Shown in pieces: positions 3,382 to 39,610 of a stretch of DNA of 42,132 nucleotides. Both the position numbers and the translations under genes were made by a program. The stretch covers positions 1-42,132 of the forward strand of contig SYJV01000355.1 in assembly GCA_005798335.1 (NCBI GenBank), in the 5' to 3' direction. The notes beneath the pieces were generated by a model, which was given only the letters and a program-made list of their open reading frames with translations, was not told the DNA's origin and searched no databases. Position 1 is the stretch's first letter. Every line of letters starts with the position of its first letter. Origin of the DNA: Planctomycetaceae bacterium (GTDB taxonomy: Bacteria; Planctomycetota; Planctomycetia; Pirellulales; Pirellulaceae).

Positions 3382-3450
3382 GGAAGGCAAAAATTGGAGG
3401 GGTATGGCGGGATATCGATTTCATGCAGGGGACGGTAGGCAAATCAACTT

Positions 3451-3547
3451 AGGAATAGCCGAGAAATAAGTGCCAGGTACCTTTTGTGCGAAGCACCCGA
3501 AGGGCGAGTTCCTCGCAAAAGGTACCTGACACTTAATTTCTCGAGCG
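3451..3547. repeat. Palindromic repeat family A, copy 1
   Basis: The element begins AGGAATAGCCGAGAAATAAG and ends ACACTTAATTTCTCGAGCG. Its arms carry AGGTACCTTTTG and CAAAAGGTACCT around a small CACCCGAAGGGCG inner hairpin. It lies in the 400-bp divergent gap between the DUF1501 gene and the gene at 3768. Other copies are at 15473 and 22259. No further gene was seen in this gap. Confidence 0.85.
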
Positions 3548-3767
3548 GCCCTTACCGATTCTAACAAATCAAATCGGCTGATGCAAAGTCGCAATTGAAT
3601 CTATTATGCTTTATACTATCCGTCCCACCCCACGATTTGTTTCGGTTCCAACTTTGGTGATCGCTGGCATCCCCAGAAATGAGATCGATTGCCTTTAGTT
3701 GCCTGCCCGTGCCAGTTGCCTGCCCATGTTTAGCTCTCCAAGCAAGATATTTACGGAGATCAACCTG

Positions 3768-19549: not shown

Positions 19550-22261
19550 ATGGATGAACAGTGTCCCATGAACGATCAGGTGATACACGACACTTCTAGT
19601 CTGCAGGCCCGCGTTGCTATGAGCGTGCTTTTGGCCATGTTGGTTTGGTTGGCGATCGGACGCTGTGGTTTGGCAATTGATGCGAACCATTACGCCGCCA
19701 AGGTGCGTCCAGTACTCCAACAACGCTGCTTTGCATGCCATGCTGTTCTCAAACGCGAAGCCGGATTGAGATTGGATACGGCTGCATTCATCAAACAGGG
19801 TGGCGATTCCGGAGCGGCAATTGCGGTGGACAAGGTCGATAGCAGTTTGTTGTTAGCTCGAATTACTTCGACCGATCAAGAGATGCGCATGCCGCCCGAG
19901 GGCGAGCCACTAACGTCCGAGCAGATTTCCGTGATTCGAGACTGGATTGCCGCAGGAGCTCCGGCGCCCGCGAACGAAGTTGCCGAAACGGACCCTCGAG
20001 AACACTGGGCCTTCAAGTCACCATTGCGGCCTGCCGTGCCCACGCTCAGTGACATGAGTTATCACAACCCAATCGATGTCTTTCTTGAACGTGCGCGACA
20101 AGCGGTAGGCGTACGACCGGTTGCACAAGTGTCCAAGGACGTATTGTTGCGTCGCGTATATTTGGATTTGATCGGACTGCCGCCAAACATTGAAGAATTG
20201 GAGGCATTTGCGGCCGACCCATCGCCGCGCGCTTTGGAAACTGTGGTCGATCGCTTACTTGACAGTCCACACTACGGAGAGCGCTGGGGAAGACATTGGA
20301 TGGACATCTGGCGCTACAGCGATTGGTGGGGACTGGGCGCGGAAGTTCGCAATTCTCAAAAGCACATTTGGCATTTCCGCGATTGGATCATCGAGTCGTT
20401 GAATGCGGACAAAGGGTACGACCAAATGTTGCGCGAGATGTTAGCGGCTGATGAACTATACCCCAACGACTTAGAAAAACTGAGGGCCACCGGATTTTTG
20501 GCTCGCCAGTATTTCAAATTCAACCGGACAAGCTGGTTGGACGAACTGATCGAACATACTTCGAAATCCATGTTGGGATTGACGTTCAATTGCGGGAAGT
20601 GCCACGATCACAAATACGATCCTTTGGAACACGTCGAATACTATCGCCTGCGAGCGATTTTCGAACCCTATCAAGTGCGCACGGACATGGTCGAAGGCGA
20701 AGTCGACTTGGAGCGAGACGGAATACCTCGTGCGTTCGACTGCAATCTGGACGCGGGCACGTACGTTCACATGCGCGGGGACGATCGCAACCCTGACAAA
20801 AATCGAGTCATCGAGCCGGCCATTCCAAAGTTTCTGGCTTTCAAAGAACTACAAATTCAGCCGATTGAATTGCCGGTCGATGCCTGCGATCCGGGCTTGC
20901 GTCCGTTTGTAGCTCACAATCACCTTAGCGCTGCCCAGCAAGCTCTCGATGATGCACAAGCGGCGCTACGAAAGATCAACGATGCTGGAAGCGTTGAAAA
21001 AAGTGACACAGAGTCAGACAAATCGCAAAGTCGAACCAAAGCGGAAATGGCCGTTGTATTTGCCGAGCATCAATGGACTGCCGTAAAAGCCCGCGCCGCC
21101 GCCGACGCAGCTCGGGCAAGTGGCGCTGCCAATGCCGGAGAGCTGGCTACAACTGCCGCCAAGTGCGAGCGTGCGGCTGCATTGCTTGCCGCCGAACAAG
21201 AGCTGAAAATCGCGCAAGCGGAATTTGATCAAGCTGGTGCGAAAAAAATGCTGGCGAAAAAGCGGTTAGAAAAAGCAAATTCGGCGATCGAAGCAGCCAA
21301 GAAAGCAGTGGAACTGACAGACGGCAATTATACGCCGCTGCTAGGCTCGTTAAAAACGCTGGAATCCAATTTAGAAACTGAGGACTCTCGCCGCAAACCA
21401 TTTCCGAGGACCAGCACCGGGCGGCGCACAGCGTTTGCCAATTGGTTGACAGACTCTCAAAACCCATTGGTTGCTCGAGTCGCCGTAAATCACATTTGGG
21501 CGAGGCATTTTGGAACTCCTTTGGTACCTACCGTATTTGATTTTGGACGCAAAGGGACTCCGCCGGTACATCCCGAACTAGTGGATTGGTTGGCCACGGA
21601 GTTGGTTGAGAACGATTGGAGCATGAAACATCTGCATCGCCTAATCGTATTGTCTGGCGCCTATCAGTTATCGTCGTCGACCTTGCACGCAACTGCTGAG
21701 AATTTGATCAAGGATTCGGAAAATCGATACTATTGGCGAGCCAATCCTCGACGCATGGAGGCTCAGATCGTGCGCGACGGACTGCTCTATCTGGCCGACG
21801 AATTGGACACGACGATGGGTGGCCCTTCGATTCCAGCAGCAGACGTGGCATCGCGCCGACGCAGTCTGTATTACGTGCATTCGCATAACGAGCACAACTC
21901 GTTCTTGTCGACATACGACGACGCCAGCGTGTTGGAATGCTACCGCCGTGCCGAGAGTATCGTACCGCAGCAGGCCTTGGCTTTGGAAAACAGTCAGTTT
22001 GCAACCGATATGGCCGCTAAAGTCGCTGCAAGAATCGAACGAATTTCGCACGCTCATTCGAATGATGTGTTTGCACGTTTGGCATTTCGAGCTGTAATTT
22101 CGGTCCAGCCCAACGACGCCGAATTACAGCTTGCGGTGAGCGCATTAGAGAAATTGACCTCAGCGGCACAAGCTAGAAATCGCGAGAATCCACAGTCGTT
22201 CGCTCGACAACAGCTCGTGCGAGCGCTGTTCAATCACAATGATTATGTCACGATCCGGTAA
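19550..22261 (+). CDS. Cytochrome (PSCyt1) / DUF1549 / DUF1553 protein with coiled-coil insert
   Basis: The 903-residue product has a signal anchor (about 24-42), a planctomycete cytochrome domain with CFACH (C60, C63, H64) and MRMPPEGEPL, where M114 is a likely axial ligand. DUF1549 (about 170-380) contains CGKCHDHKYDP (C348, C351, H352). DUF1553 lies at about 615-880 with RRTAFANWLTD, VAVNHIWARHFG and QQALALENSQF. Between the DUFs, residues about 458-590 form an Ala/Lys/Glu-rich coiled coil (AAQQALDDAQAALRK, KKMLAKKRLEKANSAI), an unusual insert in this family. The ATG at 19568 is an alternative start. The stop codon lies at the very edge of a palindromic repeat, and the DUF1501 gene follows, the standard partner. 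Electron transfer is likely; the substrate is unknown. Confidence 0.9.
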   Translation: MDEQCPMNDQVIHDTSSLQARVAMSVLLAMLVWLAIGRCGLAIDANHYAAKVRPVLQQRCFACHAVLKREAGLRLDTAAFIKQGGDSGAAIAVDKVDSSLLLARITSTDQEMRMPPEGEPLTSEQISVIRDWIAAGAPAPANEVAETDPREHWAFKSPLRPAVPTLSDMSYHNPIDVFLERARQAVGVRPVAQVSKDVLLRRVYLDLIGLPPNIEELEAFAADPSPRALETVVDRLLDSPHYGERWGRHWMDIWRYSDWWGLGAEVRNSQKHIWHFRDWIIESLNADKGYDQMLREMLAADELYPNDLEKLRATGFLARQYFKFNRTSWLDELIEHTSKSMLGLTFNCGKCHDHKYDPLEHVEYYRLRAIFEPYQVRTDMVEGEVDLERDGIPRAFDCNLDAGTYVHMRGDDRNPDKNRVIEPAIPKFLAFKELQIQPIELPVDACDPGLRPFVAHNHLSAAQQALDDAQAALRKINDAGSVEKSDTESDKSQSRTKAEMAVVFAEHQWTAVKARAAADAARASGAANAGELATTAAKCERAAALLAAEQELKIAQAEFDQAGAKKMLAKKRLEKANSAIEAAKKAVELTDGNYTPLLGSLKTLESNLETEDSRRKPFPRTSTGRRTAFANWLTDSQNPLVARVAVNHIWARHFGTPLVPTVFDFGRKGTPPVHPELVDWLATELVENDWSMKHLHRLIVLSGAYQLSSSTLHATAENLIKDSENRYYWRANPRRMEAQIVRDGLLYLADELDTTMGGPSIPAADVASRRRSLYYVHSHNEHNSFLSTYDDASVLECYRRAESIVPQQALALENSQFATDMAAKVAARIERISHAHSNDVFARLAFRAVISVQPNDAELQLAVSALEKLTSAAQARNRENPQSFARQQLVRALFNHNDYVTIR

Positions 22262-22363
22262 GGAATAGCCGAGAAATAAGTGTCAGGTACCTTTTGTGCG
22301 CAGCACCCGAAGGGCGAGTTTCTCGCAAAAGGTACCTGACACTTATTTCTCGAGCGATACTAA
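22259..22363. repeat. Palindromic repeat family A, copy 3
   Basis: TAAGGAATAGCCGAGAAATA opens the element and TTTCTCGAGCGATAC closes it; the arms contain AAGTGTCAGGTACCTTTTG and its complement with very little mismatch. Its first three bases are the TAA stop of the preceding gene. It lies between a DUF1549/1553 gene and its DUF1501 partner. Confidence 0.9.
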
Positions 22364-22449
22364 GCGTATTTTTCTGAATTCGTCTGGTGCGGGTGGTTGA
22401 ATGGTAACTGCTCCTTTTCAAGCAATCGGGTTTTTGGAAGGTGTCCAGC

Positions 22450-23925
22450 ATGAGATCCAACTGCAAGCAATGTAAAACAGCTCACGCGGTAACGCGTCGC
22501 CATTTTTTCGCGGATGCAGGCATGGGCTGCGCGGGATTGGCGTTGGGGAGCATGCTCGCTCGGGATGGAATTGTGCGCGGCAGCGATGAGGTTATTTGGC
22601 AACCGCCCGATGGCAAGCCACATTTTACTCCTCGCGCAAAGAGCGTCGTGTGGCTGTTCATGAATGGCGGCGTCTCACACATGGAGAGTTTTGACCCAAA
22701 ACCCATGTTGACCAAGTACGCTGGCAAGACGATTCGCGAGACTCCGTTTGCCGATGCGCAGAATCCTGAGAAGCTCAAATTGGCTCGCGTCACAGTGATC
22801 AACGACGCTAACGGACAGCAGCGCGATAAGCTCTATCCACTTCAAGTCGGCTCTCGCCAGTATGGTGATAGCGGTATCGAGATGAGCGATTGGGTGCCTC
22901 ACATGGGAAGCTGCGCCGACGACTTGTGTGTCTTGCGCTCGATGTGGACGACCGACGACAATCATGGCGCGCAGACTCAGTTTCATTCCGGGCGACATAT
23001 GCTGGACGGCGAATATCCAACTTTGGGCGCCTGGGTGCATTACGGGCTCGGGTCATTGAATGACAATTTCCCTCAGTTCATCTCGATGGGACGACGGGAA
23101 TATTGGAATGCCAAAGACGGGCATTATTTGGGACCGGCACACGATGCGATTCCCATTCGAGTCGATCCGAGCAATCCGCTCGATTATGGCAAGCCGACAG
23201 GAGCGATATCTTCGGAGGAACAACAAATCGGTTTTGATTTAGTTGGTCAATTCAACCGACTAAAAGGTGTCGAGTATCCAGACGATCCCGCTTTGGCGGC
23301 GCGCATCAAAGCGTACGAGCTGGCATTTCGCATGCAGTCGTCCGTACCCGAAGTGCTCGATTTGAATTCCGAAACGGAAGCAACTCACAAGTTATATGGA
23401 CTGGACGATCCGGCAACTCGCGAATTTGGTATGCAAATGTTAGCAGTTCGTCGATTTGTCGAACGCGGCGTACGGTTTATTCAAGTCCAGCACGGGGCTG
23501 GCGGCGCTGGAGTATGGGATGCGCACAGCGGGTTGCTGAAGAACCATTCCAAGAATTTTCTGGAGGTCGACAAGCCTGTCGCGGGTCTGTTGCGCGATCT
23601 GCGGCAACGGGGATTGCTTGACTCGACGATCGTCCTTTTCGCCAGTGAGTTTGGTAGAACGCCGGGGACGCAAGGTGCGGACGGTCGGGACCATCACATA
23701 TACGGATTCTCGGTGTGGATGGCTGGTGGCGGAATCCGTGGCGGTCAAGTCCACGGTGCGACCGATGAAATTGGTTTTCATGCCGTCGAGAATCGTCACT
23801 ACGTAACTGATATCCACGCCACCATTCTGCATCAGTTGGGACTGGAATCGCGGCGCATGGAGATTCCCGGTCGCAAACGTTTGGAAATTGATTTCGGCAA
23901 GCCAATTCTCGATATCCTGGCTTGA
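22450..23925 (+). CDS. DUF1501 family protein, Tat-exported
   Basis: The 491-residue product is a DUF1501 protein with a twin-arginine signal ([12 protein letters not shown], arginines 16-17) preceded by a CKQC pair. Family motifs are [52 protein letters not shown] and [20 protein letters not shown] followed by GQVHGATDE. The ATG at 22450 is preferred over a GTG three codons upstream because GGAAGG lies eight bases before it. It follows the cytochrome/DUF1549/1553 gene, separated by a palindromic repeat, in the gene order typical of planctomycetes. It is the longer DUF1501 subtype, distinct from the one at 2041. Confidence 0.9.
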
Positions 23926-23955: not shown

Positions 23956-24801
23956 CTATTTCTGTGTTGAGCCTTTGCGGCGCCTTCCCTTTGGGCTGGA
24001 CGCGTTTTCGGGTTCTCTGGCACGCAACTCGATTTCGCGCTGCAAGCGTTCTACGTGCTGGTAATACTCCTTGCGCTGCAACCAATCTGCCGCCGCGCGG
24101 TCGAGCAGAACGGTCGTCGCCGGGTGAAGCTGCAAAGCGGAAGCGGTAATCTGCGACGTTATTGGTCCTTCGATAAAGGAACGAACCGCACCAGCCTTAT
24201 TCGATCCCGTCGCGATCAACAAGATACGCCGAGCTTCCAGGATCGTGCCGACGCCCATGGTGACAGCCAATCTCGGCACTTGCTCAATCGAGTCGAAGAA
24301 CCGCGCGTTGTCGCGTACGGTTTGTTCGGTGAGCCCCTTCAATCGCGTGCGACTGCCTAGCGAAGAACCCGGTTCGTTGAAACCGATATGCCCATCGGTG
24401 CCAATGCCCAACAACTGCAAATCGATGCCGCCGGATTTGCGGAGCAGATCTTCATAGCTCGTGCAGTAACTGTCATAGTCCTCAGCCAAACCGTCAGGTA
24501 CATGACAACGGTTAGAATCTAGATCCACATGCTGAAATAAGTTAACCCCCATGAAATACCGATAAGACTGTGGGTGGTCGGCACTCAGGCCAACGTACTC
24601 ATCCAGATTAAACGTCGTAACGCGCGAGAAACTAACCGCACCTTCGCGATACATGCGGATCAATTCGCCGTACGTTCCCAGCGGCGTACCGCCTGTCGCC
24701 AAACCAAGCACACAATCGGGATTGCGCTGCACAGTCTCAGCGATCAACTCCGCCGCCCGTCGACTGACTTCCTCTGCGCTGTCCAGCATTACGATCCGCA
24801 T
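23956..24801 (-). CDS. nagB: Glucosamine-6-phosphate deaminase
   Basis: The 281-residue product converts glucosamine 6-phosphate to fructose 6-phosphate and ammonia, feeding amino sugars into glycolysis. Motifs are LGLATGGTPLGTY (phosphate loop), TFNLDEYVGL with D67, and LLGIGTDGHIGFNEPGSS with D136, H138 and E143, which match the catalytic Asp, His and Glu of the E. coli enzyme. VTMGVGTILEAR and the C-terminal HPATTVLLD also fit. The C-terminal tail is longer and basic (SPKGRRRKGSTQK). MRIVMLDSAEEV at 24801 is the natural start. A terminator-like hairpin with a U-run ends only about nine bases upstream, which raises the question of a regulated leader. The phosphofructokinase product uses fructose 6-phosphate, so the two are metabolically linked. 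Confidence 0.94.
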   Translation of the reverse strand: MRIVMLDSAEEVSRRAAELIAETVQRNPDCVLGLATGGTPLGTYGELIRMYREGAVSFSRVTTFNLDEYVGLSADHPQSYRYFMGVNLFQHVDLDSNRCHVPDGLAEDYDSYCTSYEDLLRKSGGIDLQLLGIGTDGHIGFNEPGSSLGSRTRLKGLTEQTVRDNARFFDSIEQVPRLAVTMGVGTILEARRILLIATGSNKAGAVRSFIEGPITSQITASALQLHPATTVLLDRAAADWLQRKEYYQHVERLQREIELRAREPENASSPKGRRRKGSTQK

Positions 24802-25014: not shown

Positions 25015-26979
25015 CTAATAGGGACGCAGTAGCACCTGACGGATCTCCAAGTCAGTCTCGGGATCGTGGGCCTGAATTTGCAACGTTCCGGATTCCAATC
25101 GCAAACCACTTCGCGGGTTAGTGTGGGGTGGCCGCGTATCGATCCAATCTGCAGTCTGGTAGCCATTGACCCAAGTCGCCAAATGCGGCCCCAGAGCGAC
25201 TACCGTCAAGCGAAACGGTAGGTGATCGACGGCAACTGCAGCGCGCGCCTGTAAACGATCATCGATCCCGCCGGTAGTGTATCCGTGCCGCGCACCTTTC
25301 GGATCGTACCAGGAATGGTGCAACTGAATTTCATAGCCCATCATGGTGCGCCCCGGCTCGTTGCGAATAAACAGCCCGCCATTCGTACCTGCTCGCCTGG
25401 TGCAGCCTTCCAATTGAAGTAGAAAATCTGCGAACATGTGCGGGCCATTCAGCGGCGCGTACTCAAGAGCCTCTGGGCCGCCAACGACTCGCATGGCACG
25501 ATCGGAGATGGACCACACCGCGCCCGGTTTGCTTGCAGTGGGAATTCTTCCTCTCCGTTCCCAACCGGAATAGTCGCGACCATTGAACAATGACTTGAGC
25601 TCAAGAGGTTTGAGGTTTAGACGCGAGACAGCGAATCCTTGGTTGAGTCGAATCGGTCCTCGCTTGCCTCGTGATGTTAGAGTGTGGGTGCCCGGTTGCA
25701 ACATCACAGTTCGGTCGGGCAGTACCAATTCGCCGGCTTGGGTTACACCTACACGCAACTCAAAATCTGTGAACTCGGTGGTCGTCGCGCCACCACTGAT
25801 GACGGTTTCCGGTTCAGCCGCTGACAGTTGCGCGTCCGCAAAACCGTAAGTAGTCGCGCCATCGAATAGCGCCAACCAACCATCCAGCGCTTCCTCGACG
25901 GTAATTCGGTTCGTCGGCAAACGAGAACGATTGTTCGCTTGGGCGGTTTCATTGTCGGTGGCGAGGTCATTGCCTGCTGTGAGCTGTACCGTGGCGAGCA
26001 CCAACCGAGTAACTTCGCGCGAGAACTGACTGAGCCGATTTGCGACTTGTTCGCGAGGCCGGTCGCCTGGATCGGCTTGCTCAACCATCACGACATATAC
26101 GACGGCTTCCGAGGAACCGGCTGGGTAGCACCAACCCGCCTGAACGCGCGTAAGTGGATCTGTGTCGAGCGCGCCATCCTTGAAAAAATGTTTCCCGCGC
26201 AACCCATATCGCTCGTCGGCGGTCAAAAGTGCACTCGCGGATTCCTGCAGGGAGCGACCGGGCATTTGCGGTAAAGTTGCTGAGGCAAGTTGTTGTAACA
26301 CAGATGCCATGGCAACAGTTGTCGAAGTGTTATCGCCAGTCACGTTGCGCGGTGCCAGCATATAGCGCCGCACGTGGAGATTCTTAAAAGCGGGCGAACG
26401 CGCATGAATTCGCTGAGTCAATTCCGCCGGACCGCCAAGCAGCGCGGTCGTGACATTGGCGGCCGCATTGTAAACGAGATTGGATGCCTTCTTCGAGCCC
26501 ATCATGATCATGCCGATTTGCCTAACCGTTGCCATGGACAAGCCTTGCCGAATCTCGGCGCGTTGTTCGGGCGAAAAATGAGCCACCGCTGGATGCTGGT
26601 CAGACAAAATCTCGTCGAGTCCTGCTGGCACCGCGTCGAGCGCCTGGTGATAGCGAGCGAACAGTTCTACGAGAAACGCCGTTTTAATCGCGCTGGCAGT
26701 CGGTCGAATACGGTCTGCATCGCGAGTCATCAGCGCTCGCCCGCCACTGGTGCCCAACCAAATTCCAAGTTCTAGCGGTTGACCATGTTGCAACTCGAGC
26801 TGACGAATATCCGCGGCAAGCTGCTGTTGATTGGTCGATTGGAGCCTAGCCTTGGTGATACCGTTGCTCGACGTATTGGTTTGCGCAATCGCTTGTAAAT
26901 TGCTCAGTAGAAAAACGACCCAGATCCAAGTATGCAAGGTTCTGGGCAACAGCCGAACCAGTGTCCAAAGTAGCAACAT
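25015..26979 (-). CDS. Fusion: class A beta-lactamase-like hydrolase plus DUF1080 domain, exported
   Basis: The 654-residue product has an N-terminal signal (LHTWIWVVFLLSNLQAIAQ). Residues about 50-340 resemble class A serine beta-lactamase/transpeptidase-fold proteins: SAIK (S96, K99) is the S-x-x-K nucleophile motif, ASNLVYN (about 165-171) sits where S-D-N is expected, and KDG (267-269) where K-T-G is expected. The second motif is therefore degenerate and activity is uncertain. The C-terminal ~190 residues form a DUF1080 (3-keto-disaccharide hydrolase/LamG-like) domain with SLFNGRDYSGWE, NGGLFIRNEPG, GYEIQLHHSW and WVNGYQTADW. The middle ~120 residues are beta-rich and unassigned. It is the last gene of a five-gene operon, 52 bases after the DUF1501 gene. 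The domain combination is unusual, and the joint function is unknown. Confidence 0.78.
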   Translation of the reverse strand: MLLLWTLVRLLPRTLHTWIWVVFLLSNLQAIAQTNTSSNGITKARLQSTNQQQLAADIRQLELQHGQPLELGIWLGTSGGRALMTRDADRIRPTASAIKTAFLVELFARYHQALDAVPAGLDEILSDQHPAVAHFSPEQRAEIRQGLSMATVRQIGMIMMGSKKASNLVYNAAANVTTALLGGPAELTQRIHARSPAFKNLHVRRYMLAPRNVTGDNTSTTVAMASVLQQLASATLPQMPGRSLQESASALLTADERYGLRGKHFFKDGALDTDPLTRVQAGWCYPAGSSEAVVYVVMVEQADPGDRPREQVANRLSQFSREVTRLVLATVQLTAGNDLATDNETAQANNRSRLPTNRITVEEALDGWLALFDGATTYGFADAQLSAAEPETVISGGATTTEFTDFELRVGVTQAGELVLPDRTVMLQPGTHTLTSRGKRGPIRLNQGFAVSRLNLKPLELKSLFNGRDYSGWERRGRIPTASKPGAVWSISDRAMRVVGGPEALEYAPLNGPHMFADFLLQLEGCTRRAGTNGGLFIRNEPGRTMMGYEIQLHHSWYDPKGARHGYTTGGIDDRLQARAAVAVDHLPFRLTVVALGPHLATWVNGYQTADWIDTRPPHTNPRSGLRLESGTLQIQAHDPETDLEIRQVLLRPY

Positions 26980-27031
26980 ATTCGTGATTCTGTGAAAGTC
27001 AAAAGATCGGCGCGTGTTGCGAACACAGCGC

Positions 27032-28471
27032 CTAAGCTGTCAATTCAGGAATCGGCCGACCTTCGCTGACGATCGCAGTCGGCCGGCCGTTGAAGTCGTC
27101 GATTACGACCTTGGATGCGTCAATTCCCAAATGATGATAGATCGTCGATAGAAAGTCTCCGGGACCGCAACCACGTTCGACGACATCTTCACCGCGTTTG
27201 TCGGTCGCTCCGATGAAACCACCTGTTCTCAGTCCTCCGCCAGCCCAGATGTTACTGAACGCTCTGGGCCAATGATCGCGTCCGGGTTGCAATGTGCCAG
27301 TCGCCGCGCTGGCGTTGCCAGCACCGGTACTACGATCAAAATTAATCTTAGGTGTGCGACCGAATTCTCCGGTCACGACCACCAGAATTCGCTTGTCCAA
27401 TCCTCGCTGATAGATATCCTCGATCAACGCCGAAACTGCTTGATCGTAGGCTTGCGCGCGGAATCTCAGCCCATCAAAAACATGGTGGTTGACAGCATGG
27501 TCGTCCCAATTTCCAACTCGACCACACAACTGGCCGTTGAGTTGGCTGGTTACGATCTCGACTCCCGCCTCAGCCAATCGACGCGCAAGCAACAACTGCT
27601 GTCCCCAACGATTGCGACCATACCGATCACGCGTGCGATCATCTTCCTTAGTGAGATCGAATGCGTCGCGTGTGCGAGAGTTCGTCAGCAGCGTCGCAGC
27701 TTGCGATTCAAATTCATCCAATGCACCTAGTTCACCTTCCTTGTCAAAGCGCCGTTCCAGTCGATCAAGGCTTTGGCGTAAGAATACACGGTCGCTTAAT
27801 CGTGCCGTCTCGGATCGATTCGACAAGCCGATATTGGGGACCTCAAAGTCTGGGCGATTGGGATCATTATTCACGGCGAATGGTGAATAAGCATCACCGA
27901 GATACGCCGGTCCGTTGTACTCCAGCGGCGGGTTGACGCCGACATAGTTTGGCAGCGGATTAATGCGCTTTTCGCTGTGCGATCGCAAGTAGTGCGCGAC
28001 CGACATCCAATCGGGCAGTTTGGGTTTGGGTTTGTCCCGTTCATCGGGATCGCCGGACAACAACTGCATCGAACCGGCAGGATGCCCTCCGGCGCGTTGG
28101 TGCATGGAACGTAACACCAAGAACTTGTCAGCGATCTTTGCCTGCATCGGTAATAACTCGCTGATTTGCAGGCCCGGGATCGCAGTTGGGATGGTCTTGA
28201 ATGGTCCTCGGTACTCGCTGGTGCTCTCAGGTTTGGGATCATAGGTATCGATGTGCGAACATCCACCGGGCAACCAAACCATAATCACCGACGTATTCTT
28301 GGACTGGCTGGCTGGCGCCGTTGCGGCGCGCAACCGGAGTAGACCCGGCAAGCCCAAAGTCGTGAAACCCGTCAAGCCAAGGCTCATGAATTCACGCCGC
28401 CCGATTGGGCCAGCGCACTTTGCGAAAGTGTTCATGATTTGGTTGTTTGCCATCTTTGTTTCTCTATCCAT
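27032..28471 (-). CDS. DUF1501 family protein, Tat-exported
   Basis: The 479-residue product carries a twin-arginine signal (IGRREFMSLGLTGF, arginines 25-26). DUF1501 motifs are WLPGGCSHIDTYDPKP, MHQRAGGHPAGSMQLLSG, NWDDHAVNHHVFDG, TGEFGRTPKINFDRSTGAG and GRDHWPRAFSNIWAGGG. The insert between FGRTP and GRDHW, rich in Gly/Ala/Thr, is longer than in the other two DUF1501 proteins here. The gene lies 21 bases after the cytochrome/WD40 gene and 52 bases before the hydrolase fusion, within one operon. An internal ATG at 28453 is an alternative start; both have weak ribosome sites. The activity is not known. Confidence 0.9.
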   Translation of the reverse strand: MDRETKMANNQIMNTFAKCAGPIGRREFMSLGLTGFTTLGLPGLLRLRAATAPASQSKNTSVIMVWLPGGCSHIDTYDPKPESTSEYRGPFKTIPTAIPGLQISELLPMQAKIADKFLVLRSMHQRAGGHPAGSMQLLSGDPDERDKPKPKLPDWMSVAHYLRSHSEKRINPLPNYVGVNPPLEYNGPAYLGDAYSPFAVNNDPNRPDFEVPNIGLSNRSETARLSDRVFLRQSLDRLERRFDKEGELGALDEFESQAATLLTNSRTRDAFDLTKEDDRTRDRYGRNRWGQQLLLARRLAEAGVEIVTSQLNGQLCGRVGNWDDHAVNHHVFDGLRFRAQAYDQAVSALIEDIYQRGLDKRILVVVTGEFGRTPKINFDRSTGAGNASAATGTLQPGRDHWPRAFSNIWAGGGLRTGGFIGATDKRGEDVVERGCGPGDFLSTIYHHLGIDASKVVIDDFNGRPTAIVSEGRPIPELTA

Positions 28472-28492
28472 TTGTATTATTCAAACTCTTGA

Positions 28493-30871
28493 TCAGTTCG
28501 GAGTGCTTACGCCAGTCTCGTGGGGCGGGAATGTGGCCTGTTCATTGCCTGCCACATCCCAAGTTCGTAACACACCATCGTCGCCTCCGGCAATCATGAT
28601 ACCGCCGTACGTAGATGCGGTAACGCATTGCATGAATTCGGGCAACTTTGGTATCGATCGCACCTCCCCGCCTTCGTCTTTAACGATTCGGATCAGATTG
28701 TCACCCGAAGAGCAGACAATTTGATTGGTCCCACCGATGAATTGTAATGCGGTGATTTCCTTGGCCCAACCTTCAATCTTCTTTTTTCGTTCACCCGTAT
28801 GCATATCCCAAACGACAACGACGTTGTCGGCGCCTGCGGTGGCAAGAACACGATCGTCCACGCGAAATGCCACGGACATCACATGGTGCGTGTGACCTTC
28901 GAAAACGTGGATAACCTGCCCCGACCCGATTTCGGTAACTCTCGCGATTCGGTCTGCTGCGCCAGAGGCAAGCAGTTTTCCATCGCTGGTGAAATCGAGA
29001 CTCAGGATGCTATCGCGGTGATGATCAGACCAGTGCTTGACCAGTTCTCCGTTGGCCGTATTCCACAGCGTGATGTCGCCCGAACGCGAAGGTTCCCCGC
29101 TGCCCACTGCCAGCAATCGACCGTCGGGACTGAAACTGACCGCATTGACTCGATCTGGAAATGGTTCGGAAGAATTGACACTTCCTATCGTTCGTTCCAG
29201 TTGCCAGACTTCACTGAATTCAACCAGAACTTGCGCGCCTTCATCGGATTGAACCGTGAAACTGGAACCTGAGCCTGCTTCGATGTGCGACCAGGTCAAA
29301 ACGGCATCCGAAACGTCGAGTAACGACTTTTGCATCAGCGGCGAACCGGTGCGCGCAGCCCAAGCGCTGACAATTCCTTCGCGGCTGACCGTAGCCACGA
29401 CCGAATCACGATCGACAAACGTGCCTGCGATGAACCTCACCCGATCTTTGCCAGTTGCCTCGCGAATCGATTTGAGATCGGCGCCGACTCGCTCTTCGAC
29501 CAGTTTTATTTGTGTGATCGATTCGTTCGCAGAAGTTAGTGCGAGTGCATTCTTGGCCTTGACGTTCGCGATCCGATCCACTTCGCCTTCGGCATCCTTG
29601 AGGTGATTCTCGAGTTCCATGACCATCGCCCGAGCTGCATCGTACGCGGTTTGTGCGGTAGCGAGTTTTTCTTGCGATTCTTTCTTCTGCTTCGCCAACG
29701 CTTCGTCACCGGCTCCGGCGCTGGTGCCGGCAGACACTTGACTGAGATCCTCTACAGTCTTCTTAGCAAGCGACACTGCTTCATCCGCTGATTTGAGATT
29801 GGCTTGTTTCTCGGGAAGCGTTTTCTTGACGCTCGCCAGCGTTTCGTTTGCCTTAGATAACAGTTCATCGAGCGACTTGTTTTGAGCTTCGATCCGAGCT
29901 ATTTCGCTTTTCTGATAAGCAGCCTCGACTCCGCTCTTGGCAAGCACATAATCCAACTTCGCACTCGACTGTTGCGTTTGTAGGTCGGTTTGCAGTTTAT
30001 GAAGCAATTTGCCTGTGGATTGCTCGGCAATTTCCAACGAACCGTCCGATTGGGTACGCAGCATCCAGGTGTTGGATTTCGAAGTCGCCAATACGCCATC
30101 GGCGGTCGTACTTGGTCGCAGATCGGTGTCAGGCACAGCAATTAGTCGCGACCGAACAGCTTCTGACCGTCGCCAAATTTTCACCTCGCGATAGCTGCCC
30201 GATGCCAGTCGCGATCCGTCGGGACTGAAGGCGAGACAATGCACGACCGAACGATGCGATGACGTCTGAGCAGCATTTGTCGGTAGGCTGATTGAAGAAT
30301 CGTTCAAGCTGGTAGCGAATTCCCGTTTGGCCAAATCATAGACATGAATCTGGTTTCCGCGACCACAGGCTGCGAATCGACCTCCAGGAGTAATCGCCAC
30401 CGCGTAGATCGGCTGCGTTCCCGGGGGCAGAGGAATTAAGCTCACCGGGCGATCTCGTCGCTGAGACTCTTTCGCTCCTTGCTCAATCCAAGTTCGCAAG
30501 ATGCTCAATTCACCAGTCGTCAACCGATGTGCTCCGGATTTGTTATTGGCCGGCGGCATAATCAATTCGCTTGACTGTGCCGCAGCAGTGTAGATCAAAC
30601 TGGACGCTGGCTGCCCAGCAACTACGCCCGGTCCGGAGTCGCCACCTTGGATCATCAACGTGGGCGTTTCCAGGTTTAAATCACCCTTGGTCGTCGTCTT
30701 ATTGTGGCAAGCAATACAACTCGCTTTCAGAATTGGCAGCACATCGACATAAAAGTCCACTTCCGCGCCCTGTGCCCGAGGAAAGACGCCGAAAAGAATT
30801 GCGACCCACATACACTGAAGCCGTTTGGCCAGTAGGGATCTAGTTAAAGTCGTGGTGGGCAAACAAATCAT
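28493..30871 (-). CDS. Cytochrome (PSCyt1) / WD40 protein with internal coiled coil
   Basis: The 792-residue product begins with a signal peptide (WVAILFGVFPRAQGA). A planctomycete c-type cytochrome domain follows with CIACH (C52, C55, H56), GGDSGPGVVAG and IMPPANN (M105 as likely axial ligand). WD40 repeats occupy about 155-235 and 475-785 (VHCLAFSPDGSRLASGS, VNAVSFSPDGRLLAVGS, VMSVAFRVDDRVLATAG). Splitting the propeller, residues about 315-472 are a long coiled coil rich in Ala, Lys, Glu and Gln. The protein is probably periplasmic, combining electron transfer with a binding platform. It starts four bases after the stop of the PPC gene, so the two are translationally linked. The neighbouring PPC protein also carries a coiled coil, suggesting a complex. 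Confidence 0.88.
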   Translation of the reverse strand: MICLPTTTLTRSLLAKRLQCMWVAILFGVFPRAQGAEVDFYVDVLPILKASCIACHNKTTTKGDLNLETPTLMIQGGDSGPGVVAGQPASSLIYTAAAQSSELIMPPANNKSGAHRLTTGELSILRTWIEQGAKESQRRDRPVSLIPLPPGTQPIYAVAITPGGRFAACGRGNQIHVYDLAKREFATSLNDSSISLPTNAAQTSSHRSVVHCLAFSPDGSRLASGSYREVKIWRRSEAVRSRLIAVPDTDLRPSTTADGVLATSKSNTWMLRTQSDGSLEIAEQSTGKLLHKLQTDLQTQQSSAKLDYVLAKSGVEAAYQKSEIARIEAQNKSLDELLSKANETLASVKKTLPEKQANLKSADEAVSLAKKTVEDLSQVSAGTSAGAGDEALAKQKKESQEKLATAQTAYDAARAMVMELENHLKDAEGEVDRIANVKAKNALALTSANESITQIKLVEERVGADLKSIREATGKDRVRFIAGTFVDRDSVVATVSREGIVSAWAARTGSPLMQKSLLDVSDAVLTWSHIEAGSGSSFTVQSDEGAQVLVEFSEVWQLERTIGSVNSSEPFPDRVNAVSFSPDGRLLAVGSGEPSRSGDITLWNTANGELVKHWSDHHRDSILSLDFTSDGKLLASGAADRIARVTEIGSGQVIHVFEGHTHHVMSVAFRVDDRVLATAGADNVVVVWDMHTGERKKKIEGWAKEITALQFIGGTNQIVCSSGDNLIRIVKDEGGEVRSIPKLPEFMQCVTASTYGGIMIAGGDDGVLRTWDVAGNEQATFPPHETGVSTPN

Positions 30872-30875
30872 TGGG

Positions 30876-33119
30876 TTATTTTGAACGTGGGTTGACTCGC
30901 AGGCGAATGGGTTCGGAGACGACGATGTCGACTAAGTCTTTGGGTTGAGCAACATCAGTTGCGGCTTGCACCCGTTGGTTAGCCGCCAATTTTTCGTTCT
31001 CGGCGGTCTTTAGAGCTTCCGCGGCTTGAAGTGCGGCGGCCGCCAGTTCTTGGCGTTTATCGGATGTCGCGGCAGCGGCCTCGTCCGCCAAGTGTTTGGA
31101 AGTTTCCGTCGCGGCAGCCAAGCGCTCGGTGACAAGCTTGAGATGCTCTTGGGCAGCGTTCAATTCGTGCAGTTTGTGCCGATACTTGGCGACTGCGCCG
31201 CCATAAAAAGCGATCGCGTGATCGCCAGGCTTGATCTTCATGGCCGCCAGATCGATAACCGCTTCGACTTCCGGCGCACTCAGCGGCACGTCAATAATCT
31301 TCGTCCCTTCGAAGCTGTCACCAAGTGTCTTCAGACGAACAGCGCCGGAGAATTCGCAACGCCAATTCAACTTCAACGGAATCTTCAGCGTATCTCCCTC
31401 GGTGGCTTCCCACAGCTTGTTCTCCTTCGCCAAAATGGTCAAAGGTGCCGCTTCAGACCCGCTGACCGATACGGGCACATCGGCCAGCAATCGTGGATTG
31501 GGGATCTCTTGGCTAGCATCCCGAACCGGCCATACCGTAGATGCGAGGAAGCATGTTCGCGCACGATACTCTTTGTTGATCAACGCCGAACCGACAATTT
31601 TGGCAGTCGCATGAACGCTTGCGGCATCTTGCTCGGACGAGATCAACAAGATACCTCGGTTCTTGCCGGCCGGAATACGCAAACCACACGCATTGATACC
31701 GCGAGGCAAGCCTTCCATCGCCAGCTCAATGTCTCCATCGAAACCATCTTTGCGAATGGCCACAACTTCAAAGGCTACCGTCGTTCCACCACGCAAAGCG
31801 ATTGGTTTGGAAAGAGCCGCGCGATCGCCATTGCGCAACTCCATGTGAATTGCCCAAGCAACTAGCGAAAAATCTGGCGCAGCGCGGCGTATCACCAGCG
31901 TATAGATATTGCGCGGATCGTTGCGAGTTCCGCCGAACAAATCGCGCAATTGCAATCGGTACGTGCCATCTTCCTTGATTTCGATTTTACCCAGCACGTC
32001 GGCTGAACCAGCATCGTAAACCGGGCCATCATAGGAGTAGCCATTACTGGAAATTTTCATGGGACTGGGAATGTCGTTTAGCTCGGCAACATCTACTAGT
32101 TTTTCCTGGTCGCCGTCACGAACAACTTGTTGCACCAGCAGGAATGGATCAGTCGACAACCCCAGCCGCTCGGAGGCCACTTCGATCCACCAGACCTCAC
32201 CCTTGGTAGCTTGAAACTCGAAGGTATCAACATCCGCGGCCTTGGCAAACGCACCGTCAATTCGGCAGGGGAGCGAAATTTTCTTGGTTCCCGCTCGGTC
32301 GTTACTGGGCTCGCCTTCATCCAATATCGGCAAGCTCGCGTCGGCCGCAGTCCAGGAGAATGAACTTACGCGTCGCGTGGCAGCTTGCCGAGGTGCAGGC
32401 TGTCCGCTGGGCGATTCCGATAGTGCCAATCGATAAAAGTACTCTGAGCCACCCTGAAAAGTTAGTCCGTGTACTTTAATGATGTAGCTGCCGGTCGCGG
32501 GCGGTGTAAACTCAATGAATCCGTCCACGCGGTTGGCAACTAAATCGCGTCCTTTGGAGTCGGCCACGATCAACACTGGAACTAACTTGGAATCGATACC
32601 CACCGCCGCACAGTCAATGGCGACGCGCTGGCCTGCCTTGGCTTCGAACGCATAGTAATCCACGGCTCGACTGGTAATTGTGGCGTTGCAGACCGAACCG
32701 ATGGCTAAGGGCAGCGCTGATGCGAGCGTAGTATTAGGTTGAGTGCGCGTTACCTCGGTCAATTTACTGACCGAGAAGGCGCGTGCTGACGAGACTCCCA
32801 AACGCGTCATCATGCGTGCGTCGTGAATGCTGGTCGGAGCGTCTGCAGCGATTGCGACGACAAACTTGTTCGGTACTGCTTTACCATCGGCACCGAGCTT
32901 GGGTTTAGCCGCAATGTGAGGCGTGGAGAAGAGCAATTCTTGAGAATCTTCGACGTTCTCGCCAGTTACCGTGATTTCGAATTCGGTACCCGCCTGGCCA
33001 CCCATCGGCGTCACGGTCAACAATCGAGGTGTCGGTAGCCCAACCGTCTGCCCGAGCGCGCATGTTGCAACCGTCAACAGTGCGACGTTCGTACCCAACA
33101 GCGAACAGAGTGTTCTCAT
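30876..33119 (-). CDS. Exported PPC-domain protein with C-terminal coiled coil
   Basis: The 747-residue product has a signal peptide (MRTLCSLLGTNVALLTVATCALGQ) and an IPT/Ig-like start (VTPMGGQAGTEFEITVTGEN). Two PPC-type beta-sandwich domains follow, with ATITSRAVDYYAFEAKAGQR...TGSYIIKVHG and GAFAKAADVDTFEFQATKGE...GTYRLQLRDLFGGTRND. Further beta-rich segments include GLPRGI. Residues about 650-720 form an Ala/Glu/Lys-rich coiled coil (AATETSKHLADEAAAA, ALQAAEALKTAENEK), followed by a last strand. It lies six bases after the DUF1549/1553 gene and four before the cytochrome/WD40 gene. It is the functional counterpart of the PPC gene at 6242, which lacks the coil. Confidence 0.87.
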   Translation of the reverse strand: MRTLCSLLGTNVALLTVATCALGQTVGLPTPRLLTVTPMGGQAGTEFEITVTGENVEDSQELLFSTPHIAAKPKLGADGKAVPNKFVVAIAADAPTSIHDARMMTRLGVSSARAFSVSKLTEVTRTQPNTTLASALPLAIGSVCNATITSRAVDYYAFEAKAGQRVAIDCAAVGIDSKLVPVLIVADSKGRDLVANRVDGFIEFTPPATGSYIIKVHGLTFQGGSEYFYRLALSESPSGQPAPRQAATRRVSSFSWTAADASLPILDEGEPSNDRAGTKKISLPCRIDGAFAKAADVDTFEFQATKGEVWWIEVASERLGLSTDPFLLVQQVVRDGDQEKLVDVAELNDIPSPMKISSNGYSYDGPVYDAGSADVLGKIEIKEDGTYRLQLRDLFGGTRNDPRNIYTLVIRRAAPDFSLVAWAIHMELRNGDRAALSKPIALRGGTTVAFEVVAIRKDGFDGDIELAMEGLPRGINACGLRIPAGKNRGILLISSEQDAASVHATAKIVGSALINKEYRARTCFLASTVWPVRDASQEIPNPRLLADVPVSVSGSEAAPLTILAKENKLWEATEGDTLKIPLKLNWRCEFSGAVRLKTLGDSFEGTKIIDVPLSAPEVEAVIDLAAMKIKPGDHAIAFYGGAVAKYRHKLHELNAAQEHLKLVTERLAAATETSKHLADEAAAATSDKRQELAAAALQAAEALKTAENEKLAANQRVQAATDVAQPKDLVDIVVSEPIRLRVNPRSK

Positions 33120-33125
33120 GTTGCA

Positions 33126-35399
33126 TCAGTGATTAAAAAGGAATTCTTTGGTATTCATCAACGCCCAAATCAAATCTTCATATGCCAAACGTTTGGACTG
33201 CTGTTCCTCGAGAGGAGCGCCTTGCGCGTCCAGACGCAGCTTTTTCACGTAGGCCTCTGCCAACTGCAACTCGTCTATTTTCGGCTCGCGCGAGTAGGCC
33301 GCCAGATACAACTCGCGGATATTCTCGGCGTCCGCACTGTTGGATTTCGACAATCGATCGGCGCGTCCCTCACCGGTCGCCAGCTTGGCCTTGATCTCGG
33401 CAGAATTCATCAGGAACAAACTCTGCGCCAAGCTGGATGATTGCACTCGCTCGCACTCGCAGACGCTGGCGCCTTCCGGCCGCCCAAAGACCTTTAAGAA
33501 CTTGGTGGAGTTGTTGTAACTGTTATCCGGTAGTGAAACCGCGCGCGTGCCCACGGGTAACCCAGGAAACTCGGTTCGCGCTCCGGTAAATTGATCGATC
33601 GAATCGAGAAAAACTTCGGCGGTTAAATGCTTGGGATAATAATGTGAGTAGTTCTGACGGTCGACAACGTTATAGTCGTTAGGTGCAGAGCTGAGCTGGT
33701 AAGTTGTCGACAACGTGATTGTGCGAACAAGATCTTTCAAGTCAAAATTGCTAGTGACAAAGTGCTTGGCCAGCGCGTCGAGCAATTCGGGGTTGGTGGG
33801 CGGATTGGAATCTCGCATATCGTCTTCGGGCTCGACTAACCCGCGTCGGAAGAAATGCTTCCAGTATCGGTTCACCAGCGCTTTGGCGAAAAACGGATTC
33901 GACTTGTCGCTCATCCAATCCGCCAAGCGCAAGCGAGGATCTTCGTCGGCCGAAATATCGGGAGCTGGAGACCCAAGCGCAGCGGGCCGAACGGGCTGCC
34001 GAGTTTTCTTGTTCTCAGTTTGGGCAAGGCCACGCTTGTGAAATATTACGTCCTCTCCGCGAGTCGAAGTGGGTTTGCGGCCAACTTGACTAAAGAACGC
34101 TGTCAAGCTGTAGTAATCGGTTTGGCTCCAGCGTTCGAACGGATGATGATGGCACTGCGCGCACTGCATGCGCACGCCGAGGAACAACTGAGCGATATCC
34201 TCAATCTGCTGTTGCGGTTCCTTAACGCGCTTGTACCATGCGACCGGCGGATTAGCGACGATGGTCCCCGTGGCCGCCAAGATCTCGCGGACCATTTGGT
34301 CATACGGTTTGTTTGCCAACATCCCATCGCGCAACCACGAATGGAAAGCAAAGTTTGCAGTGATGTCGCTCGTTTCATCGCGGCGATTCTTTAATAGCGC
34401 TGCCCATTTGTTTGCAAAGTAATCCGCGTAATCAGGGCCGCTCAACAGACTCTCAACCAACTGCTCGCGCTTTTTGGGATCGCCGCTGTGCAAGAAATCG
34501 CTGGTTTCTTCCACGGTCGGCAAACGTCCGCCAATGTCGAGCGTCACCCGGCGCAAAAACGTAGAGTCATCGCAGAGGTCCGATGGTGGTACACCGATTC
34601 GTCTCAAGTTAGCGAAAACGAGTTGGTCGATGAAGTTCTTCTCTGCGGGCAGTTTATCGACCGGTGCGCCCAGTGGTACGGAAACGCTGAAGACCGAAAC
34701 CAGCCCCTGATAACGAACCATAACCGCCACGTTACCGGGAACATCGTGGATGGAAACTATTCCTTCATCGCTGGCCGTGGCCATCGCTTTATCGTTCGGC
34801 TCGTACAATGAAAAGTGCGTGACATCGCGCTGGGTCCCGTTGGAGTATTTTGCAGTGACGGTTAACTGTTGCTGGGAACCCACCTGAAGAATGCCATGGC
34901 TTGGTTGAACATCCATGGCAGTCAACTGTGGATCAGAGGCCAAATTGCTAGCCGCCCCCGATTCAATCCAACGTTTCAAAGTTGTGTACGACGCGGAGTC
35001 GACTTCCATGCGTTTGCCACCGCCATGCGGCACGGTATTGGTTGCTTTCAGCAGCAGCAGACTCTGGTCAGGCGCAGCAAAAAAAATGCGTCGCCCGTGT
35101 CCTTCTTTGACGATGTGTTCAAAATCCTCTTGCGGTTCAAATCCCAGCAGCGACAGGCGAAATCCGTTCTGACCGTTTCCAGCCTTCGCATGGCAGGCCC
35201 CCGAGTTACACGAAGCTTTCGTCAAGATTGGAATTACGTCGTTGCGAAAACTCGGCACCGATGCGACCTGGTCATTCGCGACGACCGGGTATATTTGTGT
35301 TGATCCGATCGCGAATACGATCATGCCTAAGCAAGCTGGCAAGCCCGGGCACCCACCAACACTAACTGTTATCGCAGATCCGCAGCGCGCAGTCTTCAT
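33126..35399 (-). CDS. Cytochrome / Ig-like / DUF1549 / DUF1553 exported protein
   Basis: The 757-residue product opens the five-gene operon. A signal sequence (about 1-42) is followed by a planctomycete haem motif CNSGACH (C64, C69, H70) with GQNGFRLSLLGFEP. An Ig-like segment (about 160-245) precedes DUF1549 with CAQCHHHPFERW (C413, C416, H417). DUF1553 ends with ALMNTKEFLFNH. It parallels the gene at 3768 over most of its length but lacks the first Ig-like domain. Each is followed immediately by a PPC-domain gene, so this two-gene unit occurs twice in the window. No good ribosome site precedes the ATG. The family is thought to act in extracytoplasmic oxidative metabolism, but no substrate is established. 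Confidence 0.9.
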   Translation of the reverse strand: MKTARCGSAITVSVGGCPGLPACLGMIVFAIGSTQIYPVVANDQVASVPSFRNDVIPILTKASCNSGACHAKAGNGQNGFRLSLLGFEPQEDFEHIVKEGHGRRIFFAAPDQSLLLLKATNTVPHGGGKRMEVDSASYTTLKRWIESGAASNLASDPQLTAMDVQPSHGILQVGSQQQLTVTAKYSNGTQRDVTHFSLYEPNDKAMATASDEGIVSIHDVPGNVAVMVRYQGLVSVFSVSVPLGAPVDKLPAEKNFIDQLVFANLRRIGVPPSDLCDDSTFLRRVTLDIGGRLPTVEETSDFLHSGDPKKREQLVESLLSGPDYADYFANKWAALLKNRRDETSDITANFAFHSWLRDGMLANKPYDQMVREILAATGTIVANPPVAWYKRVKEPQQQIEDIAQLFLGVRMQCAQCHHHPFERWSQTDYYSLTAFFSQVGRKPTSTRGEDVIFHKRGLAQTENKKTRQPVRPAALGSPAPDISADEDPRLRLADWMSDKSNPFFAKALVNRYWKHFFRRGLVEPEDDMRDSNPPTNPELLDALAKHFVTSNFDLKDLVRTITLSTTYQLSSAPNDYNVVDRQNYSHYYPKHLTAEVFLDSIDQFTGARTEFPGLPVGTRAVSLPDNSYNNSTKFLKVFGRPEGASVCECERVQSSSLAQSLFLMNSAEIKAKLATGEGRADRLSKSNSADAENIRELYLAAYSREPKIDELQLAEAYVKKLRLDAQGAPLEEQQSKRLAYEDLIWALMNTKEFLFNH

Positions 35400-36085: not shown

Positions 36086-39000
36086 TTAATTCCAATCGAG
36101 TAGGGCTTCGATTTTCGCGGCGGAACCGTCGCGGAGCCAGCCGTCGAGTTGAGCTTGTTCTTTTAATTGCTGACCGCGCACCGTGGGGACGGAGATGAAT
36201 TGGCAATCGATTTCGGGAATTGCCGTCATATCGCCCCACAGTTTTTCGAATTGAGATACTGGAAAGATATCCTCCTGGCCATTGCCCCACCGTTTCTTGA
36301 CGTCCTTTAGCGTAACGTATGTTGGCATGCGCCTGCCGAGCTGCCGGATGGCTTCATCGACAACTGAAGCATTGTCAAGCATATCGCGGCGCAGACCGAA
36401 CGCGGTCAACAACCGATCGATGTCGATCCAGGTTGTCATCGAGTTATAAAATGAGAGCTTGAACTCGTCGCGCTCGCTAGGCATGGCGAGGCCCTCGACT
36501 AAACGCATGCGCCCGTCGACTTTGGCCAGTCCACCACCTCGGTCTTCGATCCGGCGCGTAATAACTTCGAACGACAGGCACGCGCCCGATGCGATATGCA
36601 GGCCGAGCACTTCTGGATCGATCGACGCGCCCAAAGTATCGACGTTATGCAGTAGCAAGTAACGCAGCTTCGGTTGTTCGGCGAGCAGTTGTTTCAGCAC
36701 GCCATTGCGCAGCAGATTGGGCACTTCGTACCAATGGCCCACCGGATGCATGCACTGCATCGGCAAGTTGTCCGTGTAATCGCTGGCTTCTCCCGCAGCG
36801 CGCGCCCAATCCAGCAAGGCTGCCCGCGCGCTTTGGCGGACTTTTTCTTGTTGTTGGTCGAGAACTTGTTGAGCCATCTCTTCCCATGCGAATAACAGAT
36901 CTCGCGTGGTTGGAATCATGCGCAGGCCGACGCTTCTGCCCGGCGATACGATAGCTTGGCCAGCGTACTCTACCGACGACATTGATTGTCGAATCGGGCG
37001 ATCGGTAAGGTAACCGGTCGTGAAGACGTGCGCGGGATACTTGCCATACTGCTTGCCTGTCCGACGGCTCTTCGCCAGATGCAGCTCAAGAAACGTGCGA
37101 TGAGTGCCTTGGAACTTGCAAAACGGATGCAACGCTTTGACGACTCCGGCGCCTTGTGTCCAGCGACTACCGACACCAGCCGCCAACGTCACCACAGCAA
37201 TCTGACCGGCTGCGATGCAGTTCTCAGCAGCTTGCGTCAGTGACTTGGGGACACCGCGCCGTGCATCGAGCAATTCGGTGACCGAAACATCTTCAATCAA
37301 AGCCGTCGGCGGTAAACGATTTTGCGATAATCCCAATCGACCGCCGATGATGTCTTCTCGAATTTGTTGATGGGCGATCCGATCGAATCCATTCTCTTTT
37401 AACAGTGAATCGAGGTTGTCCGCAGCGGATTCCTGTTTGGCGGAACCCGGCAAGATTCGATCGAGCAACTGACCAGCCAATGGACCGCCATCGGGTCCTC
37501 GGCACATCCGACCGATGCGCTCCAATTCGTTTCGAGTCTGCGGAGTCAGGCCCTGGATGTCGCGCCGCAGCCAGCCCGGCACGACCAGTGAGTAGTAGCC
37601 GCTGGGCATCTGACTATCGGTGCGCAATTCAGCTCGCGTACCGTGATCGTTGATGGTGAAGTCGTAGACAACCGGGTCCATTGCGAACGGCAGCGATGTC
37701 TCCATCCGCCTTTTTGTCGCCAGCATCGTTTGCTCAAGCCATTGGCTGGCTGCGGCCTTTTGTGGTGGAGCAAAAATAAATCCCATCCCGCCACCTGCCA
37801 TCCCGCCCAGCATCCAAAATCCCCAGAAATCATTGGCAAACTTGGCTCGACATTGCTCGATCAGCGATTCCGTATATCGATTGGAACACCACGGAATTAT
37901 TTCCTGCAATGGCTTAGCAAAATTATGGTCGGTCGCGTGTCCCAATCCGCGAATATCTCCGGCAGCCAGCGCCTCGGTGATGCGATCGAGAATGCCGATG
38001 GCCTCCTGGCGAGCGGTCCACTCTCGGTCGCTGCGTAACAAATACTTCTCAGTGACCATCTCCAAAATGGGACCGACGTTTTGTGCCATGCCACCATGCA
38101 CCAGCACTAGGCTATTTTGCAGCATCTGGCGCGTCAGCGGCGAGATTTCCTGACTCGAAAAAACGTGATGCGTCGGCAGCAGACGTCCGCGGCTGATCCC
38201 AAATTCGGGATCACTTTCCTCTGCGATACTGCCGGCGATTCGCTTGATGCCCGGCCAAATCCCACCAGAGTCCTGCCATCCGCCACCCGAACCGCCAATC
38301 CACTCGCCAAGGATCGCACGGGCCGCGACAATCCGGCGGTCGTCTTCGGTGAGAGTTCCGGTGAGCTGCGAAACTTGACCTGTTGCGCGCATGCACAATG
38401 CTATCAATGAACCGAGTAAGTTTGTCGACACAGCCAACCGTGAGCCTTTGGGAATGTCGTTAACGCGGGAGACGATTTCGAGGCCCAAGCCTGGACCAAC
38501 AAGCTGCTGCAACACAGTTTCCACGCCCACATCGCAACCTTCCATCCCCGGTGGCACCAAGCCACCAGCGATGATGGCCGCCTTGAGCAGCCCGAGATAG
38601 TCACGAGCAAAATCGTAAACCTCGCTCAGTCGTCGAATTTCGGTACTGGCTTCTAAATCGATGCTGACCAGTCGCAGTATCGGTTGATCGATCACTCGCA
38701 GCGCGGTATCAATTGGTGGTAGTGGGGCCGAGTGCCTGCCACGCACCGCCAAGTCGATCGACGCATTTATGACTCGCGCGCCTTCGGGGAAATCCATGCC
38801 GAGAAAGAAAATATCGCTCCAACCAGAATGGGAAAAGTCCATGCGCACGCTGGTTTTTTCGCTCAGCACCGGAAACGTGCCGTCGGGACCTGCGGTAAGC
38901 AATTCCCGGCGCACGCGTAGAGGTAAGTCTTGCGGATGGCCAGTGCGAAACATCCACTGATTACCTCGTACCGTTCGCACGCTTTGCCGCACTTGGTCCG

Positions 39001-39412: not shown

Positions 39413-39610
39413 AAGAGGTATTCGATCGTCTGAACTAAGCCCCATGAGTAAGGCGGAGGTTCGGAGATAAAGGCCATTAGTTATCGTAGCATTTTCTGAT
39501 GGAAGGCCCAGGCACGTAGGTGTTCTCGATATTGAGCAACTTGGCAAACGCCGATATACTCTGTTTTGGTTGGCCTGCGGATTGCCTCAGAAATCAGGCC
39601 AGCCAAATGG

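Follow-up and report, generated by a model that had tools for sequence, protein, structure and literature searches.

PBP-A of Thermosynechococcus elongatus (structure 2j7v) is a DD-peptidase of the class A beta-lactamase fold that works as DD-carboxypeptidase and endopeptidase on muropeptides and has no omega-loop glutamate; adding this Glu to it raised beta-lactamase activity, but only in part (PMC11189452). LRA-5 (8eo5), a soil protein described as a beta-lactamase precursor, lacks the same residue (Glu166) and shows no significant activity on beta-lactams (PMC12777564), and the glutaminases of the same superfamily carry an L-V-N loop, i.e., a hydrophobic residue at position 130, together with a KSG box and a separate catalytic tyrosine (PMC12073871). 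The published function of the DUF1080 family (PF06439, 3keto-disac_hyd in Pfam) is the hydrolysis of 3-keto-glycosides, e.g., 3-ketotrehalose, together with a proposed role on 3'-ketolactose (PMC9007349); its domain is also present in BT2157 and in the 3-keto-glycoside eliminase/hydratases 8rr2, 9fbe, and 8tda.

Here we describe a gene that joins relatives of both groups, located on contig SYJV01000355.1 (positions 1 to 42,132, hereafter the window) of the 8.46 Mb genome of a Planctomycetaceae bacterium (GCA_005798335.1). We favor, with moderate confidence, the explanation that it encodes an exported two-part protein, in which a Ser-Lys acylating hydrolase acting on a D-amino-acid amide or peptide would be joined to a sugar-directed DUF1080 module.

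Domain layout and integrity of the fusion gene

The gene (P0001; positions 25015..26979, minus strand) is a single open reading frame of 654 residues, running from 26979 to 25015 with zero internal stops. The single frame, the Pfam domains, and the fold matches agree with what had been proposed in the sequence-only reading, that is, one polypeptide with a serine-hydrolase fold in its N half and DUF1080 in its C half. Pfam assigned DUF1080 to residues 462-642 (25054..25596, minus strand; E 4.8e-18, 66.3 bits vs. a cut-off of 26.8) and, marginally, Beta-lactamase2 (PF13354) to residues 171-241 (E 3.9e-5, 23.5 bits vs. a cut-off of 22), while the class A beta-lactamase-fold domain as a whole, based on Pfam, profile, and predicted structure, spans residues ~48-340 (25960..26838, minus strand). 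The two-part layout of the sequence-only reading was incomplete in that it overlooked an additional, shortened DUF1080-like segment at residues ~357-445 (25645..25911, minus strand; GWLALFDGATTYGF...), the first part of which is modeled with low confidence. Export, also proposed previously, is plausible: residues ~1-32 (26884..26979, minus strand) form a likely signal peptide, judged by eye, with the hydrophobic stretch TWIWVVFLLSNLQAIA followed by Q, that is, AIA/Q near residue 32.

An assembly chimera was rejected on the basis of the similar GC/GC3 values of the two halves (0.559/0.586 and 0.569/0.576), which the neighboring genes match, and by clean domain borders. Specifically, the junction sits between two natural domain ends: the helix of the beta-lactamase-like domain stops near residue 340, and the free relatives of the C half start at 'TxEEAxxGW', which corresponds to residue ~357 of the fusion protein.

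Fold and active site of the N-terminal half

We checked whether the N half might lack a serine-hydrolase fold, and found that the AlphaFold2 model, built from the window domain aligned with 48 relatives, has the class A alpha/beta fold (pLDDT 95.5, pTM 0.92), with Foldseek and VIA-align matches to class A beta-lactamases throughout. The top structural match was LRA-5 (Z 25.7, rmsd 3.0 over 253 residues, with 17% of the structurally aligned residues identical), and PBP-A matched similarly (Z 24.2, rmsd 3.0 over 249 residues). When the family profile was compared to the sequences of solved structures, PBP-A ranked first (E 1.2e-8), followed by TEM variants, and no glutaminase family was matched in the profile searches with the N half. 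The N half passes the gathering score of Beta-lactamase2, and all 49 members of the family alignment match this model at E <= 1; all curated class A models, in contrast, score it far below their cut-offs.

The nucleophile and base, S96-A-I-K99 (26683..26694, minus strand), and the equivalent of the KTG box, K267-D-G269 (26173..26181, minus strand; identified from the alignment of relatives), are at the positions given in the sequence-only reading. The same reading placed the SDN position at A165-S166-N167, which turned out to be wrong; both sequence and profile alignments place V169-Y170-N171 there, and TEM Asn132 aligns with N171 when SDN-bearing relatives (L036 and L037), TEM, and PBP-A are compared. 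The SDN loop that characterizes class A beta-lactamases is thus replaced by N167-L-V-Y170-N171 (26467..26481, minus strand), and the loop preceding N171 is about six residues longer in this family than in the aligned SDN proteins. Position 130 is occupied by Val, and hence the usual proton relay is altered. In the omega-loop equivalent, R205-Y-M-L-x-x-R211-x4-D216-N217 (26329..26367, minus strand; from alignments), Met207 aligns pairwise with Glu166, the second class A hallmark that the N half lacks, and is a methionine in 51 of the 53 relatives. Conservation across these 53 relatives is strict for A95, S96, I98, K99, N167, Y170, N171, A173, G183, P184, R205, R211, D216, and N217, and K267, G269, P275, and G282 are invariant in all 52 rows that reach these positions.

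PBP-A shares with the N half the SxxK and KxG boxes and the missing omega-loop Glu. It differs in its second motif, which is Ser122-x-Asn124 (S-x-N) in PBP-A vs. x-Y-N (V-Y-N) with the longer loop here, as well as in its omega loop, which is unlike the RYML..R....DN of the N half, and PBP-A as described carries no DUF1080 fusion. LRA-5 shares the absence of Glu166, but the N-half family departs at the SDN loop too. The nearest published precedent that we found for V-Y-N is the L-V-N of glutaminases, and the K-D/S/G-G box of the family resembles the glutaminase KSG, albeit without a sequence match to the glutaminases.

Based on these comparisons, the N half would most likely form an acyl-enzyme via Ser96, with Lys99 as the base, and Asn171 and Lys267-x-Gly269 would bind the substrate; Tyr170 could perhaps take over the proton-relay job of Ser130, although this is a guess. 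The bond cleaved would most likely be an amide or peptide bond adjacent to a D-amino acid rather than a beta-lactam. Because the Glu166 equivalent is absent (Met207), a DD-peptidase-like amidase appears likelier than a beta-lactamase, and we infer that the N half is an acylating hydrolase and not a beta-lactamase.

Distribution and D-amino-acid context of the N-half family

Relatives of the N half were not recovered with a single-protein query but were with an alignment query, which found 36 loci in genome contigs from Planctomycetota, Acidobacteriota, Pseudomonadota, and Verrucomicrobiota. The family is present in 19 of the 397 genomes of the class, and the beta-lactamase-like domain was found in none of the 14 congeneric genomes searched. 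Most members stand alone, with a length of about 330 residues. Partners fused at the C terminus were found in three distinct tree branches, namely Amidohydro_3 (three genomes of one genus), rhodanese (one genome), and DUF1080 (the window only); no second fusion of a beta-lactamase-like domain with DUF1080 was found among the relatives searched. Fusion with DUF1080 is a rare arrangement of known parts, perhaps confined to this species.

The Amidohydro_3 fusions (L074, L075, and L076, from one planctomycete genus) are single polypeptides of about 800 aa that combine a beta-lactamase-like domain with a D-aminoacylase-type amidohydrolase; the best solved relatives of the latter are a D-aminoacylase (3e-71) and an N-acyl-D-glutamate deacylase (4e-59). 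These proteins are 34-37% identical to the window N half, have the same catalytic set, and, as in the window protein, show an N terminus that looks exported and a catalytic partner at the C terminus; they differ in the nature of this partner (Amidohydro_3 vs. DUF1080) and fall in a separate tree branch. In five loci of Pseudomonadota (L062, L063, L064, L070, and L071), the free gene adjoins a deacylase that is 33-38% identical to the fused one, accompanied by varying subsets of D-amino acid dehydrogenase, M14 peptidases, GltP-like symporter, TonB receptor, and LysR regulator, with the genes of two of the loci (L063 and L070) arranged head to tail in one direction. Together with L065, these loci form a conserved D-amino-acid locus that includes the beta-lactamase-like gene and varies in its member genes; the dehydrogenase in the Pseudomonadota loci is DadA-like and the deacylase is of the N-acyl-D-amino-acid type.

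The fusion to a deacylase and the neighborhood, in two phyla, make a D-amino-acid amide or peptide the best guess for the substrate of the family, which falls short of certainty because the window gene and most planctomycete and acidobacterial members are without such neighbors. All-against-all BLAST of the neighbors of the stand-alone planctomycete members revealed neighbors shared among close relatives only, and we therefore derived no function from these. The window genome encodes, in other places, Amidohydro_3 proteins and a single weak relative of D-amino acid dehydrogenase, which we considered too general to count.

The DUF1080 module of the C-terminal half

The C half consists of the shortened DUF1080-like segment (residues 357-445) and the full DUF1080 domain (462-642), and is distinguished by the signature TGxIDDR vs. 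the GGIFRR of common tandem DUF1080 proteins. Both its gathering score and its jelly-roll fold place it in PF06439, although its 66 bits are under the 89-126 bits of its relatives. The structural model is of moderate quality (pLDDT 73.9) and matched 3-keto-glycoside eliminase/hydratases in Foldseek. BT2157, 8rr2, 9fbe, and 8tda share with the C half the PF06439 domain and a jelly-roll match at about 16% identity, and differ from it with respect to the TGxIDDR subfamily, the shortened extra segment, and the N-terminal partners.

Strong matches to the C half were found in 21 of the 397 class genomes. The module occurs as a free, exported protein in some genomes, is preceded by Rid (Ribonuc_L-PSP) repeats in L095/L005, L130, L132, L133, L139, and L147, and by a neutral/alkaline-ceramidase-like domain in L128 (C half 55% identical). 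The C half is hence a portable part, found free and behind Rid repeats or a ceramidase-like domain, and the window protein adds another N-terminal partner. A D-aminoacylase gene next to L095 (58% identity to the fused enzyme) was considered as a link between the C half and D-amino acids but recurred in none of 12 further C-half loci, and AAT and ceramidase genes adjoining L094 and L093, respectively, were single cases and given no weight.

The sugar role that the sequence-only reading assigned to DUF1080 is possible by family membership only: the C half may bind the sugar moiety of the N-half substrate, or of one nearby, or cleave it as a 3-keto-glycoside, and the two halves could act jointly on a sugar-peptide substrate.

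Neighboring genes

Upstream of the fusion gene and on the same (minus) strand are genes encoding a DUF1501 protein (27032..28471), a planctomycete cytochrome with PSCyt1 (CIACH at residue 52) and WD40 domains (28493..30871), a PPC-domain protein (30876..33119), and a PSCyt2/PSD1 (DUF1549/DUF1553) protein (33126..35399), all identified by Pfam. This PSCyt1/PSCyt2/PSD1/DUF1501 gene content, like the relatives recovered, points to a planctomycete. Genome comparison revealed that the PSCyt2/PSD1, PPC, and DUF1501 genes represent a family-wide cassette, the order of which is kept, with the fusion not adjoining, in all eight family genomes compared, including two congeneric ones; in none of these was the WD40-cytochrome of the window found between PPC and DUF1501. 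This cytochrome has an extended middle part with weak similarity to SMC, probably coiled, and lies inside an otherwise conserved PPC-DUF1501 pair. Downstream, a NagB-like glucosamine-6-phosphate deaminase (23956..24801, minus strand; Pfam) follows about 213 bp after the fusion, if its start is the likely ATG at 24801. No sugar dehydrogenase was found among the co-oriented neighbors. The window as a whole contains three separate DUF1501 and PSCyt2/PSD1 pairs within 42 kb (2041-6227, 19550-23925, and 27032-35399), and a 1153-aa ORF with a TTG start (36086-39547) in which the C-terminal part alone matches UTP-glucose-1-phosphate uridylyltransferase.

The DUF1501 and fusion genes are separated by 52 bp, and a hairpin of 9-10 bp followed by CUUUU (26978-27034; z -1.98) lies between the stop of the former and the start of the latter. 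The hairpin is possibly a weak terminator; a consensus terminator scan did not call it.

Discussion

Several alternative explanations should be weighed against the preferred one. A genuine class A beta-lactamase that confers antibiotic resistance would agree with the fold of the N half and with its weak matches to class A models, but the loss of both the SDN serine and Glu166, and the score obtained with the curated class A model (bla_class_A, NF033103; 16.6 vs. 200 bits), make this very improbable indeed. The same two losses could be taken to favor the idea, raised in the sequence-only reading, of a binding module devoid of catalysis. However, virtually every member, across four phyla, retains the Ser, Lys, Asn, and K-x-G box, a pattern that a non-catalytic role would hardly account for, and we regard the binding module as quite improbable; the part of that earlier proposal that holds is a specificity altered relative to beta-lactamases. 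Alternatively, the substrate could be a free amide (e.g., the side chain of D-glutamine or D-isoglutamine), the N half then being a glutaminase-like or other amidase and not a peptidase; this would fit the hydrophobic residue at position 130, the KSG-like box, and the separate tyrosine described for glutaminases, as well as the glutamate/aspartate-type symporter and the PRK09061-family deacylase that adjoin members of the family; the profile similarity, in contrast, goes to PBP-A and the class A enzymes, and we consider a free-amide substrate unlikely.

The remaining alternative concerns the whole protein, which the sequence-only reading had tentatively placed in a periplasmic sugar-oxidation unit with the neighboring cytochromes. 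The shared strand and short gaps are in its favor, and DUF1080 is tied to 3-keto sugars made by membrane dehydrogenases, e.g., LacABC (PMC9007349), but the cassette occurs widely with no such fusion gene beside it and the co-oriented genes include no dehydrogenase of this kind. Since the cassette is kept without the fusion and the hairpin separates DUF1501 from it, a functional partnership with the cytochromes is not supported, and we find the sugar-oxidation unit improbable.

Our preferred explanation thus remains an exported acylating hydrolase of D-amino-acid amides or peptides joined to a sugar-directed module. A broader extension, which we consider distinctly doubtful, is that the N-x-x-Y-N proteins are undescribed exported serine amidases feeding D-amino-acid catabolism with D-peptides or N-acyl-D-amino acids as substrates, possibly from peptidoglycan, and that the fused sugar cleaver would extend this to both sides of a glycopeptide, with NagB using the amino sugar. 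If this were true, one protein would attack the peptide as well as the sugar side.

We find the N-x-x-Y-N family, together with its link to D-amino-acid genes, more interesting than the fusion of known parts. The DUF1080 sub-type is reused downstream of unrelated enzyme domains (Rid repeats, ceramidase-like, and beta-lactamase-like), and the N half belongs to a widely spread, uncharacterized family of the beta-lactamase fold in which the Ser-Lys machinery is retained, N-x-x-Y-N stands in place of the SDN loop, and Glu166 has been lost. Its members can easily be mistaken for beta-lactamases in annotation, and the recurrent tie to D-aminoacylases, by fusion and by neighborhood in two phyla, offers a direct and testable hypothesis for their substrate.
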